The notes below the pieces were generated by a model. That model was given only the letters and a program-made list of their open reading frames with translations. It was not told the origin of the DNA and did not search any database. From the IMG/VR virus record IMGVR_UViG_3300050035_000714, positions 1-27,208 of that record: a DNA stretch of 27,208 nt. The stretch is one strand, 5' to 3'. Origin of the DNA: a virus. Every line of letters begins with the position of its first letter. Position 1 is the stretch's first letter. This document shows, in pieces, positions 4,444 through 27,208 of the stretch. The translations under genes were made by a program, and so were the position numbers.

Positions 4444-5547
4444 TTAAAGTAATTTATTTGTTTGTAGCTCTGAATATATATTTTTAATTTGCATTGCTAC
4501 TTTAGCGATACTATAAAGACTATAATAATCTATTTTTCCAATAAATGAACCACCGACACTATATGTTGTTGTAGTTCCCATAGCAGTTGTGCAAGATACC
4601 TGACTATTGAACACGCCGTTTACATATAATTTAACGTTGGTAGAATCGTATGTAAATGATAGCAAACAATAAGTGCTAATTGGTAGAACATAACTAAAGG
4701 TATTAACAGTAGTTCCAATCGTCAATTGGATATTGGTCGAGTTCAACACAATATTAAACTTTCCAGTATCTATTATCTTTTCGCCATCAACTAATCTATC
4801 TCGATTAATCATAAAATTAACCGTAAATTGATTTGTTATCTGAGATGCTATAATAGTAGCAGTGCCTGCTACATATCCATAATTAGGGTCTGGAGCAGTA
4901 GTCCCAATGGTTAGTACAATGGTATGTTTATTATTTGCAGCACCATTTCCACCGACTTCGTTTGGCAAATCGTTTTGGTCATTGCAAAAGGCAACGATTG
5001 TATAAACTCCGTTAGCAGTTGGTGTCCATGTGGCAGCGGTTGTTCCTCCATTTGCAGTAAGATTTATCTTCCCTCCAGCAGGTAATGAGTTATAGTCTGT
5101 GTCACTCCAGACATTAGTAAGAAATGCCGTGATAGGGTTTCCTTGAGAGATACTCCAAACCACTCCATGTTTTATTCCAGAAGGGGTGGCGGTATCTCCT
5201 ATATTTTTCAATGTCACCGAAAATGTTACTGGTTGTCCTATTTGCGGATAGACGGGTGACCATTTTATGCTATACACGGTTAAGTCATAACCGCCTGTGG
5301 TTGTATTGCCAGGTTCTGAGTCATCTGGTATTGTCGGGATAGTTCCATTTAAGTGTATAGCTCGATATGGTTTAGTAAATCTATCTGCCACAAATGTATA
5401 TTGCCCATTGTTCGTCACCGTCTCTCTATTATTACCATTATCTACCAATGTGTTGGTATTTGCTTGATAAGATTGGTTTTTAAATCTTAATTCTGTAATT
5501 AAAGATTTACTATCAGCTACTTTATTTGATAAATAGTTTGCTATCAT
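4444..5547 (-). CDS. Fibre-associated protein with CARDB-like and LamG-like domains
   Basis: A 367-aa protein. Residues 1-85 are an Asn/Thr-rich head. About residues 87-215 look like a CARDB/APHP-type Ig-like adhesion domain: DLTVYSIKWSP, then PVTFSVTLKNIGDT, then GVYTIVAFCN. About residues 225-355 look like a concanavalin A/LamG lectin fold, with YVNG and the terminal GKIDYYSLYS followed by a short helix, as in LamG_3. Its start overlaps the stop of the large fibre (TAATG), so expression is coupled. A glycan-binding or adhesin tip on the large fibre is the likely role. Domain names are from motif recognition and unverified. Confidence 0.65.
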   Translation of the reverse strand: MIANYLSNKVADSKSLITELRFKNQSYQANTNTLVDNGNNRETVTNNGQYTFVADRFTKPYRAIHLNGTIPTIPDDSEPGNTTTGGYDLTVYSIKWSPVYPQIGQPVTFSVTLKNIGDTATPSGIKHGVVWSISQGNPITAFLTNVWSDTDYNSLPAGGKINLTANGGTTAATWTPTANGVYTIVAFCNDQNDLPNEVGGNGAANNKHTIVLTIGTTAPDPNYGYVAGTATIIASQITNQFTVNFMINRDRLVDGEKIIDTGKFNIVLNSTNIQLTIGTTVNTFSYVLPISTYCLLSFTYDSTNVKLYVNGVFNSQVSCTTAMGTTTTYSVGGSFIGKIDYYSLYSIAKVAMQIKNIYSELQTNKLL

Positions 5548-8500
5548 TATGATACGGTTACTATTAATTTATTATTTGTCGGTAGTATGTGAACAAATTT
5601 GTTATAGGCAGATGCAGCAGGAACAATAAAAGTATCTCCAGTTCTATCTATTATTGTCTTTCCTGAAAATGTTGTAGGTAAATTTACCGTACAATCATAC
5701 GCATTTGCATTTGTTAGAATAACAAGTATCTCTCTACCAGCAGTAAATGAACTTGCTGAATAGGTTAAATTTAAACTAAATGCAGCCGATGCATTATCAG
5801 TTGGATTAATTGTAACATCATACACATCCACATTTCCTGCAACGGCTATTGGCGAAGCTATTGATGCTATTGTTGCTGGGTCTGATTCAACTTTAATGGG
5901 TTGTGCTCCTATGCTGGTGGTGGTTACGGCAGCTATTGCAGCGGCTTGTGCTGTTGAAACGGGTTTGTTAGCATCGGAAGTATTGTTTACATTGCCAAGA
6001 CTTAAATCTGTTGCGGTTACGGTTACATTTGCCGATAGGGCGTGTCCGTTTACGGTAGTGGTATTGGGTACAAAGTTATTTGTAATCCATGCCCACGCTG
6101 TGCCTGTCCAACTAAGAATGCCTGTTGATTTTGTGATGGTTGGTTCAGCTCCTACTTGTGATGCTGTTGTAGGAATAGTAGGCTTATTAAGTATTTGTGC
6201 AAGTCCTGTAGAGGCGTTCCAATCTGAATTAACTTGTGCTGCTGGAATGGTAGGCTGTCCCGTTAAATCTGAATAGGCTACGGTTACATTAGCTGATAGG
6301 GCGTGACCGTTGATTGTTCTCGAAGTTGGAACTGCTCCTAAAGTAGTGGTGGTTACGGCGGCTATCGCAGCGGCTTGTGCTGTTGAAACGGGTTTGTTAG
6401 CATCGGAAGTGTTGTTTACATTGCCAAGACTTAAATCTGTTGCGGTTACGGTTACATTTGCCGATAGGGCGTGTCCGTTTACGGTAGTGGTATTGGGTAC
6501 AAAGTTATTTGTAATCCATGCCCATGCTGTGCCAGTCCAACTCAACAATCCTGTTGATTTTGTAATGGTTGGTTCTGCTCCTAAAGTAGTTGTGGTTACG
6601 GCAGCTATTGCAGCGGCTTGTGCTGTTGAAACGGGTTTAGCTGTATCAGCTGTATTGTTTACGTTACCTAGTCCTAAATCTGTTGCGGTTACGGTTACAT
6701 TTGCCGATAGGGCGTGACCGTTTACGGTAGTGGTATTGGGTACAAAGTTATTTGTAATCCATGCCCATGCTGTGCCAGTCCAACTCAACAATCCTGTTGA
6801 TTTTGTAATGGTTGGTTCTGCTCCTATGCTGGTGGTAGTTACGGCAGCTATTGCAGCAGCTTGTGCTGTTGAAACGGGTTTAGCTGTATCAGCTGTATTG
6901 TTTACATTGCCAAGTCCTAAATCGGTGGCAGAGACTGTTACGTTTCCATTAAGTTGATGCCCATTTACGGTGAAGTAGGTCGGTACTGCTCCTGTATCGG
7001 CTGCAGATATATATATATTTGCGTTAAGTGCATGACCATTAACGGTAGTGGTAGTGGGAACTGCTCCTACATCACTTGCAGACAATGTTATAGCTCCTTG
7101 TTTTCCGCAAACACTTGTAACGTCGTCAGAATTCAAGGATAATTGGACTACGCCAATATTGTTGTAGATAGCCCAGTCGCCAAGATTGAAAGATAGTCCG
7201 AATTGTGTGCCTGCAACGCCTACGGTATAGACGTTTCCTACTTTTGTTAGATCGGGGCTTACTAAGCCTAAATCGTTGGTGGAGGCATTCCAAACGCCTA
7301 TGTATTTTAATAAAGTGCCTGGCAAAAGTGATAATGGTATTTTTCCGCTGGTGTCTAAGCTTATTTTAGTAGATTCTAATTCGTTGATAGCACCTCTCAA
7401 ATCTTGTGAAGTGGTAGTTAATCCATTTACATAAAATAGGTGGTTAGCTCCAAAATATGTGTTAGGGACACCACCATTCAGCTCTGTTCTAAAGGCATAG
7501 TTATTTTTATCCGTATTAGCTGAAACATCTGGATTTAAAATTCTCAAATCAGGCTGCCAATAATTATCTGAATTAAATAGATACCTGTATAATTCTGGGA
7601 TTTGGAAAAAATCTGGATTATTAAACTGCAAAAAACTAGAGTTAGCTCCTGTAGATTCAGTATATTGAGTAGTAAAATTCATGGTAGGAGTTTGAAAAAT
7701 CTGTCCTGTTCCACTTAAATAAAGTTGAGATACCTTTGAAAATTCCTCGGTTGTTTGTGCTCGTAAATAAACATTTCCAGGTGTGTAATAAAAAGTATTC
7801 TGCCCTTGAGAGTTTACCAATATGAAATCTCCAAGAATTCGCTTTCCATCGCCAGGACGGTCAGAAATCATTTCTGTTCCGTTACCGTCGTTAAGGATAA
7901 AATAGTTAGGTCCTGTTTGCATAATAGGGGTATTTCCCATATTTATTTGCAGAAATGGAACGTGTGAGGGTGTACTATCTACTCCAGCGGCTAAGAATGT
8001 TGTTCCGTTGGCGTGTATGGTGGTTGTGGTAGGGAGGGCGTCTAATATAAGTTCGCCGCCTACATTTAATTGTAATTCGCCACTATTGGCAAAAATATTT
8101 TGTGTTCCTCCTGCTCCAGCTGAGAAGTAAAAAGGAGTGTCTGTACCGTCGCCTCCTGCGTCTAAAACATTGTGTCCATTTGCTTTAACGGTGGTATAGT
8201 TATTGCCTGCTTGTACAATAACTACGCCTCCAGCTGAAAGGTTCGTCCAAGTTGCACCGCCATTTAGCAGTACTTGACCGCCTCCTAAATAGGCTGAATA
8301 AGCAGGGTCGATGTGTAATCCTGCTATGTTATTTCGGGCAATATCAAAAGCCCCGTTTCCGTTGATAGCTGCATTATCGGGTGTTAATACGACTGTTTGG
8401 GTTGTGGGGTCGTAGGTAAAGAAATCTAATAATGATGCGGTATTGAAGGTAGCGATGGTGAAATTGTCGGTAGCTGTATTGTAATTGAATACAAATATTT

Positions 8501-8930
8501 GATTGGGTAGTATATTTGCAATGGTTTGTGTGCCTACTGAATTGGTTAATATGACTTGACAAGGAATGGTGACCCAAACTTTTTGAATGGCTGTTGAGGT
8601 ATCTGTAACAACATCTGCATTAAAATAAGCCATTCCGCTTGTGGTTACTCGATTGTCTGTTACTAACCACGATTGAACGGTATTGGGACAAACAAAAGAG
8701 ACGGTAGCTGTTGTGTCATCTACAATAAGGGGCAAAACGCCAGCATCGGGGGTGGGTAGTGGAAGAGTTGTAGAGTTTTGTTGCCAAATGCCATCACGAA
8801 TTTGAATATATTCTATATTGGTGGTCGTGTCTAACCATCCTTTGCCAATGGGAATGCCAGAAGCTGTGAGACCATCGGTGGTGGTGGGTGGTCTGTTTTG
8901 TAATATGGAACTTTGAACTATTTCTGTCAT
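5547..8930 (-). CDS. Large tail fibre with 81-residue shaft repeats
   Basis: A 1127-aa tail fibre. The N-terminus (1-50) is the docking domain shared with the 153-aa paralogue at 3833. A beta-rich region follows to about residue 500. GAINEL (about 515) marks a fibre hinge seen in many phages. From about 600 the shaft carries TVNGHAL, NVTVTATDL, GLGNVNNTADTAKPVSTAQ and WTGTAWAWITNN units, repeating with an 81-aa (243-bp) period, plus a variant insert around residues 880-935. The last about 90 residues (VESDPATIAS onward) form a distinct C-terminal domain. It would be displayed at the baseplate for host recognition. Repeats make length variation by recombination likely. No chaperone domain is visible; the coupled downstream gene may serve as tip or adaptor. 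Confidence 0.85.
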   Translation of the reverse strand: MTEIVQSSILQNRPPTTTDGLTASGIPIGKGWLDTTTNIEYIQIRDGIWQQNSTTLPLPTPDAGVLPLIVDDTTATVSFVCPNTVQSWLVTDNRVTTSGMAYFNADVVTDTSTAIQKVWVTIPCQVILTNSVGTQTIANILPNQIFVFNYNTATDNFTIATFNTASLLDFFTYDPTTQTVVLTPDNAAINGNGAFDIARNNIAGLHIDPAYSAYLGGGQVLLNGGATWTNLSAGGVVIVQAGNNYTTVKANGHNVLDAGGDGTDTPFYFSAGAGGTQNIFANSGELQLNVGGELILDALPTTTTIHANGTTFLAAGVDSTPSHVPFLQINMGNTPIMQTGPNYFILNDGNGTEMISDRPGDGKRILGDFILVNSQGQNTFYYTPGNVYLRAQTTEEFSKVSQLYLSGTGQIFQTPTMNFTTQYTESTGANSSFLQFNNPDFFQIPELYRYLFNSDNYWQPDLRILNPDVSANTDKNNYAFRTELNGGVPNTYFGANHLFYVNGLTTTSQDLRGAINELESTKISLDTSGKIPLSLLPGTLLKYIGVWNASTNDLGLVSPDLTKVGNVYTVGVAGTQFGLSFNLGDWAIYNNIGVVQLSLNSDDVTSVCGKQGAITLSASDVGAVPTTTTVNGHALNANIYISAADTGAVPTYFTVNGHQLNGNVTVSATDLGLGNVNNTADTAKPVSTAQAAAIAAVTTTSIGAEPTITKSTGLLSWTGTAWAWITNNFVPNTTTVNGHALSANVTVTATDLGLGNVNNTADTAKPVSTAQAAAIAAVTTTTLGAEPTITKSTGLLSWTGTAWAWITNNFVPNTTTVNGHALSANVTVTATDLSLGNVNNTSDANKPVSTAQAAAIAAVTTTTLGAVPTSRTINGHALSANVTVAYSDLTGQPTIPAAQVNSDWNASTGLAQILNKPTIPTTASQVGAEPTITKSTGILSWTGTAWAWITNNFVPNTTTVNGHALSANVTVTATDLSLGNVNNTSDANKPVSTAQAAAIAAVTTTSIGAQPIKVESDPATIASIASPIAVAGNVDVYDVTINPTDNASAAFSLNLTYSASSFTAGREILVILTNANAYDCTVNLPTTFSGKTIIDRTGDTFIVPAASAYNKFVHILPTNNKLIVTVS
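5900..6960. repeat. 243-bp tandem repeats inside the fibre gene
   Basis: The landmark GTTACGGC recurs at about 6352, 6595 and 6838, an exact 243-bp spacing. A further copy lies near 5934, separated by an insert of about 175 bp. Long stretches between copies are identical, for example around GAAACGGGTTT and GGGTACAAAGTTATTTGTAA. The repeats keep the reading frame (81 codons) and encode the fibre shaft. Open frames on the plus strand here are shadows of this coding repeat. Confidence 0.9.
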
Positions 8931-16268: not shown

Positions 16269-17843
16269 TTATACGACTGCTGTTAAGGTAGATTCATGTA
16301 TTGCCTCTTCTAATATTTTTTCTAACATATCTTTTACAGAGCCTAAGCCTTGTTTTAGATTTACGGTAGAAATGGTAAAATTTTCAATCAAAGGTTTTTT
16401 ATAATTTATGTGAATGTTGATTGTTTTGGCTCCTTCGGCTTTTGTTTTGGGGGCTGGTGCGTCTTGTCCTGCTGCTCCTTTTGCTCCTGGTTTACCAGTA
16501 GGGACAACGGATACTGATTTTCCTTCTGCTGCTTTATCGGCTGCTGCTTTTTGTGCGTCTGAATTATTCCAAGCTTCACTTACCGCTTTTGCTCCATTTG
16601 CTCGTGCATCTGATACATCTTGGGCTCCTTTGGCTATTAATGCAGGGTTAAATGTTATTATCCCCCATATTTGTTCTCCCAGTCCCTTAAATATTCCTCC
16701 TACTTCTATTCCGAATGCTTTTATAACTCCCCACACTCCTTTGACCATGTTGCCTAATCCGCCAAAATGGTCGGAAAGTTTTATTATACCCAACACTAAA
16801 GCTGCTACTGCTAGTACTATTTCGGGTATTCCTGTACTCCAAAGAGCAGCTGAAAAAGCCCAAGTAACAACTGTAGCAGCAGTACCAGCAAACGAATAAG
16901 CATCTTGTGCAATTGTTAGTAAACCTTGTGCTGTTGCTGCTGCATCTTGTGCATCTTTGACCAGATTAAATGCAGGTGCTAATTTGTCACTTAACTGGGA
17001 TGTAAGACCTCCTAATTTCGATTTAGCCTCATCTACTTTCGATTTAACATCTTCTACTTTTTTCATAAAACCAGCTAGTGGTGTTTGATCGAAAGCTAAT
17101 TGTGCTTCGTCTCCAACGTCGCCCTCGGCTGTTTTTACTGAAAGAAGTTTCTCTTTTACATCGCTTGCGATTGTAGCAAAATGACCCGTATTTTTGGAAA
17201 TTTTAGCCATCATTCCATCTGCCTTTTTGCCCACCATTTCTAATGGAGAATGAAGCCCCATTATATTCTTTTTTGTAGGCAGCAGCGCTTTGGATATGTC
17301 TTTTGCTCCGTTGGCTATTTTTTGTAATGGTACATCTCCTTTTATAGACTTAAGAGCTTCAGAGGCTTCTTGTGCTCCTGTGGCTATTTTTTTAAATGTT
17401 TGGTCTGCATTTTTAAACTGTAGATTTTTAGCTACTTGTTTTGCTCCGTTGGATAGGTTTTGTAATGCTGCATCTCCTTTTATAGACTGAACAGCTTTGG
17501 AGGCTCCTTTTGCTCCTGTGGCTATTTTTTTTAATGCTTGGTCTGCACTTTTAAACTGCAGATTTTTAGCTGCTTGTTTTGCTCCGTTGGCTATTTTTTG
17601 GATGCCATCATCTAACTGTCCGGTAGCCGACTGTAGCTTGTGAACATTTTGTTCGCCCGCTTTTAGGTGTTCTAATCCTTTGAATTTTGACAATGAAGTG
17701 CCTAATGCTGCTCCTATTTCAAGAGCAGCAGTTTTTATTCCACCCAACGCTTTTTCGAGTTCTTTAGTGTGTGTGGTGGCATCGTTTAAAGCGGGCGATA
17801 GGTTATCTTTTAGATTAAGGACGTATTCAACTATATTGCTCAT
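16269..17843 (-). CDS. Tape measure protein
   Basis: A 524-aa tail length-determining protein. It is helical and Ala/Lys-rich for most of its length. About residues 78-190 carry tandem 46-residue repeats (IATGAKGASKAV, NLSNGAKQVAKNL, KIANGAKDISKAL). About residues 313-365 are hydrophobic, as expected of the tape-measure part that can enter the host membrane. The C-terminus (about 485-524) is more ordered. Placement right after the frameshifted chaperone is diagnostic. At about 1.5 angstrom per residue it would set a tail of roughly 80 nm, short for a myovirus. Its start codon overlaps the stop of the chaperone frameshift product. Confidence 0.88.
   Translation of the reverse strand: MSNIVEYVLNLKDNLSPALNDATTHTKELEKALGGIKTAALEIGAALGTSLSKFKGLEHLKAGEQNVHKLQSATGQLDDGIQKIANGAKQAAKNLQFKSADQALKKIATGAKGASKAVQSIKGDAALQNLSNGAKQVAKNLQFKNADQTFKKIATGAQEASEALKSIKGDVPLQKIANGAKDISKALLPTKKNIMGLHSPLEMVGKKADGMMAKISKNTGHFATIASDVKEKLLSVKTAEGDVGDEAQLAFDQTPLAGFMKKVEDVKSKVDEAKSKLGGLTSQLSDKLAPAFNLVKDAQDAAATAQGLLTIAQDAYSFAGTAATVVTWAFSAALWSTGIPEIVLAVAALVLGIIKLSDHFGGLGNMVKGVWGVIKAFGIEVGGIFKGLGEQIWGIITFNPALIAKGAQDVSDARANGAKAVSEAWNNSDAQKAAADKAAEGKSVSVVPTGKPGAKGAAGQDAPAPKTKAEGAKTINIHINYKKPLIENFTISTVNLKQGLGSVKDMLEKILEEAIHESTLTAVV
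17283..17610. repeat. 138-bp repeats in the tape-measure gene
   Basis: TGGTCTGCA recurs at 17401 and 17539, a 138-bp (46-codon) spacing. Each full repeat contains two related half-units of about 23 codons built on a GA(K/Q) core. About two and a half full repeats are visible. Unequal crossing-over here would change the encoded tail length in steps of 46 residues. Confidence 0.8.
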
Positions 17844-18405
17844 GTGAAATTAACTTGATGTATTGTTTCTAAATAATATTTCGTCATTCCCCATAATCGG
17901 GCAAACTCAGTTTCTTTTTCGTCGTCCGTTCCTTCTAATTTGTATATGTCTATATGCAAACAGCCCTGAATAAGGGCTGCCATACGAGGAATGTCATCCC
18001 CACCATTTGTGATTTGATGGTCTTCTATTTTTTTTTATACTGATTCTTTGCTACTTCGATAATTAATAAGCAACGCTCGTTCATACCAAATTTGTAAGAA
18101 TCGCAATCGGGTGTTTCGCCATAGGTTTTTGGGTCGCTTTCTTCTTTCAAGGTCAAGGTTTCACGCAATCCGTCGGCAGCTAAAAACATTCCTGTGGTTG
18201 CTACTTTGTCCATTACCATCAGTTTTTGAAGATATGATGGTGCTTTAAGGTAGCCAATGACACGGGCGTTATCGTTATCGGCATCGATTGCCACATAAGG
18301 ATAGACCTCTGGAACGATGTATTTTTTTGCCAATTCAACGGCAATTGCTTCGTAAGATGCTTGTTCTTCAGCCGAAATGACATCTGATAAAATTTCTTTT
18401 TTCAT
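17840..18405 (-). CDS. Tail assembly chaperone, frameshift product (GT-like)
   Basis: A -1 shift at the A9 run (18036-18028) in the 126-aa chaperone bypasses its TAG. It adds 62 codons beginning IEDHQITN and ending HQVNFT, for a total of 188 aa. The extension stop (TGA, 17842-17840) overlaps the tape-measure ATG as ATGA, and the extension has no in-frame stop. This is the G/GT arrangement of lambda and P2-like phages. The minor long product binds both tape measure and tube subunits. The first ATG in the extension (RMAAL, about codon 16) could be an independent start, but it would lose the upstream part. The slip site A AAA AAA lies at 18034-18028. Confidence 0.8.
18025..18405 (-). CDS. Tail assembly chaperone, short product (G-like)
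   Basis: A 126-aa soluble protein between the tube and tape-measure genes, ending YKKK just before TAG. Length, position and the slippery A9 at its 3' end identify it as the abundant short chaperone that coats the tape measure during tail assembly. No membrane segments or Cys clusters are seen. Its start overlaps the tube stop by TAATG. Sequence similarity to a named family is not recognised; the assignment rests on gene order and the frameshift. Confidence 0.8.
   Translation of the reverse strand: MKKEILSDVISAEEQASYEAIAVELAKKYIVPEVYPYVAIDADNDNARVIGYLKAPSYLQKLMVMDKVATTGMFLAADGLRETLTLKEESDPKTYGETPDCDSYKFGMNERCLLIIEVAKNQYKKK
18028..18036 (-). other. Programmed -1 ribosomal frameshift site
   Basis: Nine A residues in the mRNA form three Lys codons before TAG. 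The heptamer A AAA AAA (18034-18028) lets two tRNA-Lys re-pair in the -1 frame. A weak potential hairpin (ACCAT 18021-18017 with ATGGT 18006-18002) begins 6 nt downstream, in the usual place for a stimulator. The downstream frame stays open for 62 codons to the tape-measure start. Confidence 0.75.
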
Positions 18406-18842
18406 TATACTGTTGCTGTTGTTAAGCCTCCGATAATTAGAGGTAATTTTACGACTAGTTTAGTATCGCCTTCTTTTGCTGAAAATGTATCTTCTGTAAA
18501 TTCACAATTCTTCAATGTAGTTGTTCTTACGTCTGATAAATTGTTTCCGTATTTAACAATAATATCAAACCAACCAATATTTAAGACATCTCCACCAATT
18601 GCTAAAGCGGCTAATTTAATGTTTTGCCATTCTTCTTGATATATTTCAATGGATGCTTCGTAATCTACTCGTCCATAACCACGTGAAACGGGTTCGCTTC
18701 CTACTCCGTAGTTGTTTGTTTTTATTTGTTTTCGCTTCCATTCGATGGCTAAAATACCCACCACTGGAACACCGAATAAAGTAAGTGATATGTCGCTCCA
18801 GCTATAGGCTACGCCATTTATTAAAGTTGCTTGATTAATCAT
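18405..18842 (-). CDS. Tail tube protein
   Basis: A 145-aa beta-rich protein directly after the sheath gene, the normal position of the tube. It would stack as hexamers around the tape measure inside the sheath. Sequence features include EWKRKQIKTNNYGVGSEPVSRGYG and a central YEASIEIYQEEW. Length matches small Mu/P2-type tubes. It starts 6 bp after the sheath stop and overlaps the chaperone start by TAATG. Confidence 0.75.
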   Translation of the reverse strand: MINQATLINGVAYSWSDISLTLFGVPVVGILAIEWKRKQIKTNNYGVGSEPVSRGYGRVDYEASIEIYQEEWQNIKLAALAIGGDVLNIGWFDIIVKYGNNLSDVRTTTLKNCEFTEDTFSAKEGDTKLVVKLPLIIGGLTTATV

Positions 18843-18848
18843 GATTTT

Positions 18849-20429
18849 TTACTTGAATGAGATTGGTACTTGAATATTTCTTGCAATTCCGTTTTCGTTT
18901 AACACGACTTGTATGATGAGTGTGCTTGTTGTAGAAACGTTTTGACTTGGGTCGATGTACACATCACTATCAGAAACTGAACCTAAATCGCCATCTCTAT
19001 TCATTTGATAGAGGGGTTGTAATGCTTGTGATTGAAAGAAGGCGATAGTTGTTGTGGCAAGTGTTCCGTCGGCGTTTTTCAATGTTTTGGCTTTCAAATA
19101 AGGAATAAGGGCGATGTAAATGCCTCGTATTGCTTTGTCAATCACACGATTGTCATTGATATAGGCGTAATCGGATGCGGTGGTGATGGCAGTATGATTG
19201 TCGTTAAAATAAGTGCCTGAATAGCCGATGTAATTCATGCCGAAAATGTGTCTGTTGGTATCGATTAAATCAATTTTAGAATCGTCTAATGCCTTTAATA
19301 ACTGTCCGTTGGCAAAAGCTGGTACGTCGTTTTCGACGCCATTGGAAATATCATACAAGGCTGGTTCTCCAAAGTCGTCGCTCACGGCACTTGCTGAAAG
19401 GATGCCTAAGGCGATGCCTAATTGTGTGATGGAGAATCCAGAGATTTGGAATAATTGACTGCCTGCTGCTGCACCGTCTTGTCCGATAATAGAGCTTACT
19501 TTGTTGGCTGATAAGAGTGATAAATCGGCTATTGTTGAAATATCTGTAATTCCACTAATATCAGCGGCATATAAGGCACTTAATGGTTTGTGACGGGCAT
19601 CGTTGTAGGTTTTAATAACTGTATCAATAACAGTTAAATCGCTTTCGGCGTATGCTCCTGTTTTGTAAATTCCGATTTGACGACAAGCTCCACCTGATGC
19701 AGATTGCAAAGTGGTGATTTCGTCAAATGTTAGATTTACAGTTTCATTTTCAGGTGCAGTTGGAATTTGTGAAAACATTACCCATAAGTAAGCGTTTGGA
19801 TTGCCTCTAAAGAATTCGCTAATGTGGTAATGCCATACTGCTAAATAAGAGACTGTTCCGCCTGTGAATTGCGTTAATGTACCTGCTAATGTAGCAGAAG
19901 CACTATAAACAACTGATAACGCACTTGTCTGTGTTTGAAAGAAAACAACTAAGCCTTGTGCTGCGATAATGGTTACTGTGTCAGTAGGATCTCCATTTAC
20001 ATCAGTATTTGAGGCTGAATAGCCTGTGCTTCTTGTTAAAGAATTGATGGCGGCAACGATTGCTGATGCTACTACTACAGTTGGATTTGTAGTTGAACTA
20101 CTGATTCCTGCTTGTGTATAAGAACCAATTGTTGTAATGTTTCCCGAAGGACCATTAACAATGAATTTTATCGTGTTTCCGTTTGCTCCTGCAGCTGTTA
20201 CTTGAAAAGTAGCTGTTGGTCGTATTTCATCCGAATAATTGTTTAAAATACCTTTGTTTTCGGCATCAACAGTAGAAAATACTTGTTGAGCAGTATTGGC
20301 AATGAAGCCAGCGGGAATGGTAGAGTTAGAAGAGGCAGGGGTGTAAATCAATAACCCCGAAACCCAATCTTGACCCGCAGCCGTTCTTCCGCTTGCTCCT
20401 TGTCCTTTGATGAATGTTATATTGTCCAT
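18849..20429 (-). CDS. Contractile tail sheath protein
   Basis: A 526-aa sheath, which indicates a myovirus-like tail. The start (FIKGQGASGRTAAGQDWVSGL) and the C-terminal block (SDSDVYIDPSQNV, LIIQVVLNENGIARNIQVPI) match sheath proteins of Bacteroidota phages (DUF2586-like, from memory). Residues about 70-190 form a Gly/Thr/Ser-rich beta domain (GANGNTIKF, TQFTGGT) that looks inserted and surface-exposed. The C-terminal third contains the core contacting the tube. It lies between the small acidic-basic gene and the tube gene. Confidence 0.85.
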   Translation of the reverse strand: MDNITFIKGQGASGRTAAGQDWVSGLLIYTPASSNSTIPAGFIANTAQQVFSTVDAENKGILNNYSDEIRPTATFQVTAAGANGNTIKFIVNGPSGNITTIGSYTQAGISSSTTNPTVVVASAIVAAINSLTRSTGYSASNTDVNGDPTDTVTIIAAQGLVVFFQTQTSALSVVYSASATLAGTLTQFTGGTVSYLAVWHYHISEFFRGNPNAYLWVMFSQIPTAPENETVNLTFDEITTLQSASGGACRQIGIYKTGAYAESDLTVIDTVIKTYNDARHKPLSALYAADISGITDISTIADLSLLSANKVSSIIGQDGAAAGSQLFQISGFSITQLGIALGILSASAVSDDFGEPALYDISNGVENDVPAFANGQLLKALDDSKIDLIDTNRHIFGMNYIGYSGTYFNDNHTAITTASDYAYINDNRVIDKAIRGIYIALIPYLKAKTLKNADGTLATTTIAFFQSQALQPLYQMNRDGDLGSVSDSDVYIDPSQNVSTTSTLIIQVVLNENGIARNIQVPISFK

Positions 20430-23087: not shown

Positions 23088-24308
23088 CTACTGTTTTATT
23101 AGTTTGGTTTCAAAACTTCCGATTTTGAGGATGTAAATGCCTGTTTGTAGGAAACTGGCGGGTAATGTTCCGTTATCAACTTGTTGGGAAAAAATCAACT
23201 TGCCATTTAAATCAAATAGTTGTAATGTTTGGGGTGTGGTTAGACCGCTGATGTTGAAATTATCTACTATAGGATTTGGAAAAATAGAAACGTTATCTTG
23301 TATTTGTTGTACGGCTGTTCCGATTATTCCAACAATATGTGTAAAATCTTGCCATTGATTGGCTGCTTTGTATAGATTTGCTGAATTTAGAGGGACATAT
23401 AGGGTACAGGTGGTTGTGTTTACAGCGTAGAAAACTTGAGCAGAGGAAGTTAAATCTACAGGAGTAGTTGCATATGAATATATGGAGGATAAAGAAGTAC
23501 AACCATCAAAAGCATCACCTCCAATGGAAGTAACCGATGAGGGAATGGTGATTGAGGTTAAATGAGTACAATACGTAAAAGCAATAGCTCCAATAGAAGT
23601 GAGAGATGAAGAAAGGGTAATGGAGGATAAACCAGTACAACCCTGAAAAGCAGCATCTCCAATAGAAGTAACTGATGACGGAATGTTTATTGAGGTTAAA
23701 GCAGTACACCACTCAAAAGCATACGTTCCAATAGAAGTAACGGATGAGGGAATGGTAATGGATGTTAAACCAGTACAATTCTCAAAAGCATTCTGTCCAA
23801 TAGAAGTAACCGATGAAGGGATGGTAATGGAGGTTAAACCACATTCTATAAAAGCACCCTCTCCAATTGAAGTAACAGATGACGGAATAGTAATGGAGGT
23901 TAAACCAGAACACAATCCAAAAGCACCGTCTCCAATAGAAGTAAGGGATGAGGGAAGGGTAACTGAAGTTAAGTTAGTACGACCATCAAAAGCTGCGGAA
24001 GGAAGATCATTGGCTGCATAGACATAATTATTATCTGAACCTTGTGTTCCTTGTGTACCTGTGTAGGCTGCAATTGTAACGGCACTTAAATTTATTGCTG
24101 CTAATTTGGGCATACTGTCACGCATGATTTTAAAGTCTCGTGCATCGATAGTGCCTGTAATGGTGAGGTTGGTAATTGTACTGAGATTTCCGCCTACGGT
24201 AGTGATGGCGGTAGATAGACCGCCTGCGGTACTGGCAACTGTTAGGGCTTGTGCTGTGGTTATTGCCATCAGGCACAAACTAAAGATGAGTAAAATTGTT
24301 TTTTTCAT
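23088..24308 (-). CDS. Secreted BspA-like leucine-rich-repeat protein with T9SS sorting domain
   Basis: A 406-aa exported protein. Residues 1-21 are a signal peptide (MKKTILLIFSLCL... to TAQA). Residues 60-90 contain RDSMPKLAAINLSAV, as in BspA relatives. Eight tandem 22-23-residue LRR_5 repeats follow (about 104-285; core LTSITIPSSVTSIG), one unit lacking a residue. Then comes the usual CTLYVP and YKAANQWQDF cap. About 339-406 is a Por-type C-terminal sorting domain (SIFPNP, LFDLNGK, GIYILKI), which targets the protein to the cell surface through type IX secretion. BspA-like proteins bind host tissue or other bacteria. It lies between phage gene blocks and has its own terminator. It may be a host gene or a phage-carried lysogenic conversion gene. 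Confidence 0.9.
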   Translation of the reverse strand: MKKTILLIFSLCLMAITTAQALTVASTAGGLSTAITTVGGNLSTITNLTITGTIDARDFKIMRDSMPKLAAINLSAVTIAAYTGTQGTQGSDNNYVYAANDLPSAAFDGRTNLTSVTLPSSLTSIGDGAFGLCSGLTSITIPSSVTSIGEGAFIECGLTSITIPSSVTSIGQNAFENCTGLTSITIPSSVTSIGTYAFEWCTALTSINIPSSVTSIGDAAFQGCTGLSSITLSSSLTSIGAIAFTYCTHLTSITIPSSVTSIGGDAFDGCTSLSSIYSYATTPVDLTSSAQVFYAVNTTTCTLYVPLNSANLYKAANQWQDFTHIVGIIGTAVQQIQDNVSIFPNPIVDNFNISGLTTPQTLQLFDLNGKLIFSQQVDNGTLPASFLQTGIYILKIGSFETKLIKQ

Positions 24309-26869: not shown

Positions 26870-27208
26870 ATGAAAAAAATAATTTTACTTATCTTTAGTT
26901 TGTGCGTAATAACTATGTCGCAAGCAACATCTGTTTGGTGTAATGGAGGAGGTCAGTTATCAAATGTATTACAACAAGCTGGTATAAAGTGTAAAAACAT
27001 TACCTCTTTAATTTTTACGACATCTACGAGTCCATTCAATGGAATGTTGGAGTATTCCGTACTAAGTGCTACTGACTTTTACTTAATCCGTGATAGTATG
27101 CCAAAGCTCACTTACTTAGATTTGACTAATGTGCAAGCAGGAGCGTTACCTTATGCAATACCTGCGGATGCTTTTCAAGGTTGTACAAGTTTAGTTCAAA
27201 TAATTTTA
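26870..27208 (+). CDS. BspA-like secreted protein, N-terminal part only
   Basis: 113 codons run off the window. Residues 1-19 are a signal peptide (MKKIILLIFSLCVITMSQA), almost the same as that of the 23088-24308 gene. About residues 75-90 contain LIRDSMPKLTYLDLTNV, matching that protein's MRDSMPKLAAINLSAV. The end shows AFQGCTSL, the start of an LRR_5 unit. It is thus a paralogue, likely with LRR repeats and perhaps a sorting domain beyond the window. It is on the opposite strand to the phage genes and is preceded by a TACATTTG promoter element. Confidence 0.85.
   Translation, partial: MKKIILLIFSLCVITMSQATSVWCNGGGQLSNVLQQAGIKCKNITSLIFTTSTSPFNGMLEYSVLSATDFYLIRDSMPKLTYLDLTNVQAGALPYAIPADAFQGCTSLVQIIL

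Follow-up and report, generated by a model that had tools for sequence, protein, structure and literature searches.

A predicted programmed −1 frameshift extends a candidate tail assembly chaperone in an uncultured contractile-tailed phage and its relatives

Results

The window analysed here is the whole 27,208-nucleotide stretch of IMG/VR record IMGVR_UViG_3300050035_000714, and it contains the tail module of an uncultured phage, all features of which are on the minus strand. The module runs from a tail sheath gene of the contractile type (20429..18849; PHROG tail sheath, E 1.4e-26; Pfam DUF2586, E 1.6e-33) through the gene for a 145-aa tail tube-type protein (18842..18405; PHROG 4579, tail protein, E 1.6e-20), a candidate tail assembly chaperone gene of 126 codons that we call G (18405..18028), its extension T (18028..17843) and the gene for a 524-aa tape measure protein (17843..16269; PHROG tail length tape measure, E 4.4e-7) to the baseplate hub genes. 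The tube protein is homologous to the tail protein of phages Peternella_1 and lotta8-1 and to the XkdM-named protein of phage MMP7, and the TAA of its gene overlaps the ATG of G. At 524 aa the tape measure protein is short, and it has internal repeats (NLQFKSADQALKKIATGAKGASKAVQ..., window 17290..17640).

The initial annotation of this DNA had proposed that the chaperone gene ends in AAA AAA AAA TAG and that the −1 frame then stays open for 62 codons, up to a stop within the ATGA that starts the tape measure gene. Both statements were borne out on the minus strand. The 3′ end of G reads TAT AAA AAA AAA and is followed by the zero-frame stop TAG (18027-18025), so the candidate slip site (18028..18036; heptamer A AAA AAA) directly abuts the stop codon. 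Entered in the −1 frame at position 18028, T encodes IEDHQITN...HQVNFT, 62 sense codons that end at a TGA (17842-17840) overlapping the tape measure ATG. A G-T fusion would thus comprise 126 + 62 = 188 aa, the size that had been predicted, and the position of G and T between the tube and tape measure genes is indeed that of a G/GT pair. The remaining two frames across the T stretch have several stops each, and a 62-codon frame stays open in 0.7% of composition-preserving shuffles.

Relatives were first found through the extension T of the window, and iterated searches of IMG/VR relatives gathered 33 distinct sequences including the window itself. G alone from the window gave no close relatives among viral contigs, and the full alignment of G was too varied for use as a query. 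Neither T nor an alignment of G from one of the two clades (clade 2) matched anything in genome contigs, and tblastn of the window fusion against cultured phages returned nothing; a clade-2 relative used as the query recovered the FPSV phages. A scan for the exact motif LETIHQV gave almost only chance matches. The collection is diverse, with G falling into 11 clusters at 60% identity (single linkage) and having a median pairwise identity of 44%.

In 32 of the 33 distinct sequences, A AAA AAN is followed directly by TAG and T lies in the −1 frame. T is 55-62 codons long wherever the contig covers its end (that of L064 stops inside T), and this end is usually a few bases from the tape measure start. 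The two codons ahead of the last codon of G are both AAA in 32/32, even though AAG makes up 90/307 (29%) of the other lysine codons of G. The last codon is AAA in 27 sequences, AAC in two, AAG in two and AAT in one, so that, in terms of X XXY YYZ, only Z varies in the slip heptamer. All 32 have TAG as the stop codon behind the heptamer, compared with 26/197 long ORFs at the same loci, although the kinship of the sequences weakens these statistics. This constant TAG may derive from the second residue of T, whose codon starts with G, or may reflect slow termination that aids the slip. L070 is the sole relative with its extension in the +1/−2 frame (junction TTC GG A9 TAA, positions 5340-5400). 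When this junction was searched for elsewhere, only the same contig was recovered; the junction may be an assembly indel or a true change of shift mode.

Within T, the −1 frame accumulates substitutions chiefly at third codon positions, and dN/dS is ~0.05-0.25 in most pairs at 70-90% identity. Together with the presence of the same arrangement in 32 sequences, this low dN relative to dS indicates, at the sequence level, that T is a translated protein segment under selection, and excludes sequencing error as its origin. T had been flagged as open to refutation if it lacked conservation or carried stop codons in relatives; it is instead kept in the −1 frame throughout these 32 sequences. A −1-frame stop stands two codons ahead of the slip site in most sequences, and there is no ATG, GTG or TTG in T before codon 12, and usually none before codon 16. 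Codons 1-15 are nevertheless conserved as protein, which argues that they could be read only by ribosomes coming from G. AlphaFold models T with a pLDDT of 91.7, as a confidently predicted helical domain with helices at residues 12-24 and 35-56; the model had no match at E 0.001 among predicted viral structures.

The AlphaFold model of G also has a pLDDT of 91.7. Compared with solved structures, it was most similar to 3fgx (Z 6.7, rank 1) and to YqbN, 3klu (Z 4.2, rank 2), with HK97 gp13, 2ob9, at rank 15 (Z 3.2). Foldseek placed the same three at ranks 1, 9 and 4, respectively; its E value for the fold match is 0.12. All three structures have been called tail assembly chaperones (PMC9603447). 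No unrelated fold stands above 3fgx and 3klu in the Z-score list, in which all values are below 8; matches to prion and ribosomal proteins have low Z and were set aside as unrelated. These modest scores support, without proving, a predicted fold for G like that of known tail assembly chaperones. Pfam and PHROG searches with 28 G and 26 T sequences gave no significant, consistent match, and G and T constitute a previously unannotated chaperone family that is absent from both collections. No earlier account of this frameshift family appeared in the literature searched, most subscription papers lying outside that search.

A small hairpin had been noted downstream of the slip site. We find instead three tandem hairpins in the window (17959..18021; ~18021-18002, 18001-17986 and 17981-17959) with a folding energy of −25.4 kcal/mol, and relatives also have structure at this position. 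In the window a weaker hairpin begins 7 nt 3′ of the heptamer and the strongest lies ~47 nt 3′ of the slip site. The structure in the window is more stable than expected from synonymous shuffles (z −2.81, 1/200). For the 75 nt that follow the slip site, the mean z against protein-preserving synonymous shuffles is −2.32 ± 0.32 across 28 sequences, whereas the corresponding values are +0.33 for the rest of T and −0.16 for the end of G. Judged by these comparisons, the downstream RNA structure is selected beyond the demands of the protein sequence.

The main (third) hairpin, with the stem GGCAGC../..GCUGCC, has 100% of cells paired in nine clade-1 sequences, with both-side changes in 2/9 pairs. 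When the partners are slid, with the main hairpin and its neighbour taken together, the share of paired cells falls from 88% to less than 50%. L051, L055 and L063 form the stem of the main hairpin in a shifted register. The stem-loop of clade 2 is longer and bulged, and covariation supports it less well; one type of stem-loop for both clades did not fit, and the two types were counted separately. In most members the strongest structure starts ~25-47 nt 3′ of the slip site, and in L054, L056 and L057 the downstream structure is weak or absent.

Discussion

The conservation of the slip site and extension, the chaperone-like predicted fold of G, the gene position and a homologous extension in cultured relatives all support the programmed −1 frameshift proposed in the initial annotation. 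We consider it very probable that this is programmed −1 ribosomal frameshifting of the lambda G/GT type at A AAA AAN. Most ribosomes would stop at the TAG and release the 126-aa G, while a minority would shift one base backwards on A AAA AAA, so that they cross the TAG as A-TA G.. and translate the 62 further codons into the 188-aa G-T fusion. In the lambda model, G coats the tape measure protein in many copies and rare G-T brings tube subunits (PMC5009743). By analogy, many copies of G may coat the tape measure protein here, a few copies of G-T may use T to bring in tail tube subunits and initiate tube polymerisation, and both proteins would leave afterwards. That the slip takes place at the ribosome, its frequency, its stimulation by RNA structure and the proteins with which G and T interact are points that we infer; for comparison, HK97-like chaperone frameshifts have a measured efficiency of 6-7% (PMC3711429).

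The −1 frameshift of lambda gpG/gpGT is described by Levin 1993 and by Xu, Hendrix and Duda 2004/2013/2014, as cited in PMC5009743. The present pair resembles it in lying between the major tail protein and tape measure genes and in joining a short chaperone to a rare −1-frame extension by a slip near the end of G. It differs from lambda in belonging to a contractile tail, in having a slip site, A AAA AAN, that directly abuts TAG, in an RNA structure placed mostly 25-47 nt downstream, and in a G and T that have no Pfam or PHROG family. Phage Mu also combines a contractile tail with a frameshifted tail gene, but its shift is −2 (cited in PMC5009743) and the one here is −1; among the present relatives only L070 could be −2.

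The placement of the RNA structure sets this signal somewhat apart. Stimulatory RNA structures are usually spaced 5-9 nt from the heptamer. It is conceivable, though we would lean against it, that the family uses a variant signal, consisting of a heptamer always placed directly against TAG and a conserved stem-loop that, at 25-47 nt downstream, is out of the usual reach of a heptamer-paused ribosome. Such a distal stem-loop could act through a higher-order fold or through ribosomes that queue or terminate, or could instead determine the ratio of G to G-T to tape measure protein.

Transcription offers another route to the same product, if the polymerase were to add or drop A's on the A9 run so that G and T are fused in a single frame on some mRNAs. 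The A9 run is present in 28/32 sequences, and polymerase slippage at A/T runs, which in some genes replaces frameshifting, is documented in work cited in PMC5009743 and PMC3711429. We nonetheless regard this as an improbable explanation of the family, since the frame relation is unchanged in the 4/32 relatives that have A8 only (AAA AAA AAC or AAG), and the cultured relatives have just A6 within A AAA AAG. Moreover, the elements that are kept are a codon-phased heptamer and an RNA structure selected at synonymous sites, and polymerase slippage needs neither. Genes that depend on such slippage would be expected to keep a long homopolymer (about nine or more) whatever its codon phase. Polymerase slippage could still add to the product in members with A9.

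Much less probable again is that T is a separate small protein, made from an internal start, such as the Met often present at codon 16, or by reinitiation after the TAG. Most relatives do have an ATG at codon 16 or 17 of T, and in lotta8-1 the extension is annotated in just this way, but L054, L056, L057, L073 and L100 have no ATG at either codon, the protein-level conservation of codons 1-15 would be unaccounted for, and A AAA AAN would be left with no reason for being kept. The explanation to which we give the least credence is a homopolymer error of sequencing or assembly, or a decayed fusion gene. Homopolymers are prone to indel errors, and L070 is possibly one such case, yet the arrangement is common to 32 distinct sequences from many metagenomes, −1 arrangements with other heptamers occur in cultured phages, and T is under purifying selection. 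Programmed −1 frameshifting at the ribosome is thus the reading that we favour.

Among cultured phages, Flavobacterium phage FPSV-S1 (Winoviridae) shares the gene order of the window and carries, between its G and tape measure genes, a homologue of T in the −1 frame behind TTA AAA AAG, and the extensions of FPSV-S1, Peternella_1, lotta8-1 and MT835775 all lie in the −1 frame behind A AAA AAG; a gut phage contig shares this heptamer with lotta8-1 and Peternella_1. In the flavobacterial phages (FPSV-S1, lotta8-1 and Peternella_1; Winoviridae), all of which have this gene order, the stop codon comes one codon past the heptamer, whereas here it abuts it. The T profiles of the window group and of the cultured flavobacterial phages match strongly (HHalign 97.8%, E 7.5e-13), while the G profile of the window family has no detectable similarity to G of FPSV-S1. 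T therefore appears to be the more conserved of the two partners, which would fit a contact between T and the conserved tube protein.

Contractile modules of the XkdM/XkdN type, as in Meiothermus phage MMP7, Faecalibacterium phage Mushu and Bacteroides phage BS-TP1, are similar in having sheath, tube, a gene in the chaperone position, an overlapping second ORF and tape measure. The overlap is −1 in Mushu and BS-TP1, with in-phase A AAT TTG and A AAT TTA, respectively; in MMP7 (L086, 3711-3908), the second ORF, which follows an XkdN-named chaperone, appears to be in the +1 rather than the −1 frame.

This unclassified chaperone family, of ~11 clusters at 60% identity, joins the known type of tail frameshift. 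In the annotated relatives examined, T has been overlooked (it is unannotated in FPSV-S1, Peternella_1 and BS-TP1) or split off (a separate small ORF in lotta8-1); the extension loci in these four phages are L078 (MK764442.1) 6019-6201, L079 3790-4044, L080 3982-4167 and L084 3910-4170. That T is kept while the gene upstream is not recognisably related makes the proposal that T contacts the tube and G the tape measure a testable one. The 32 natural variants of one signal, with A, C, G or T at Z, always TAG and a displaced stem-loop, also form a set for studying frameshifting in Bacteroidota.

A hint about the host comes from elsewhere in the window, where an ORF adjoining the phage head genes encodes a BspA-type leucine-rich-repeat protein (23088..24308, minus strand; Pfam LRR_5, E 8.3e-69) that carries a secretion-system C-terminal sorting domain (Por_Secre_tail, E 1.7e-9). 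Its domain content suggests a Bacteroidota host, and the phage may carry it as a gene of host origin or for surface display. On the plus strand, another ORF (26870..27208, start 26870) encodes an N-terminus that resembles the one of this protein. The window also encodes a long fibre-like protein (5547..8930, minus strand) that has near-identical repeated segments (NGHALSANVTVTATDL..GNVNNT) and no Pfam match.
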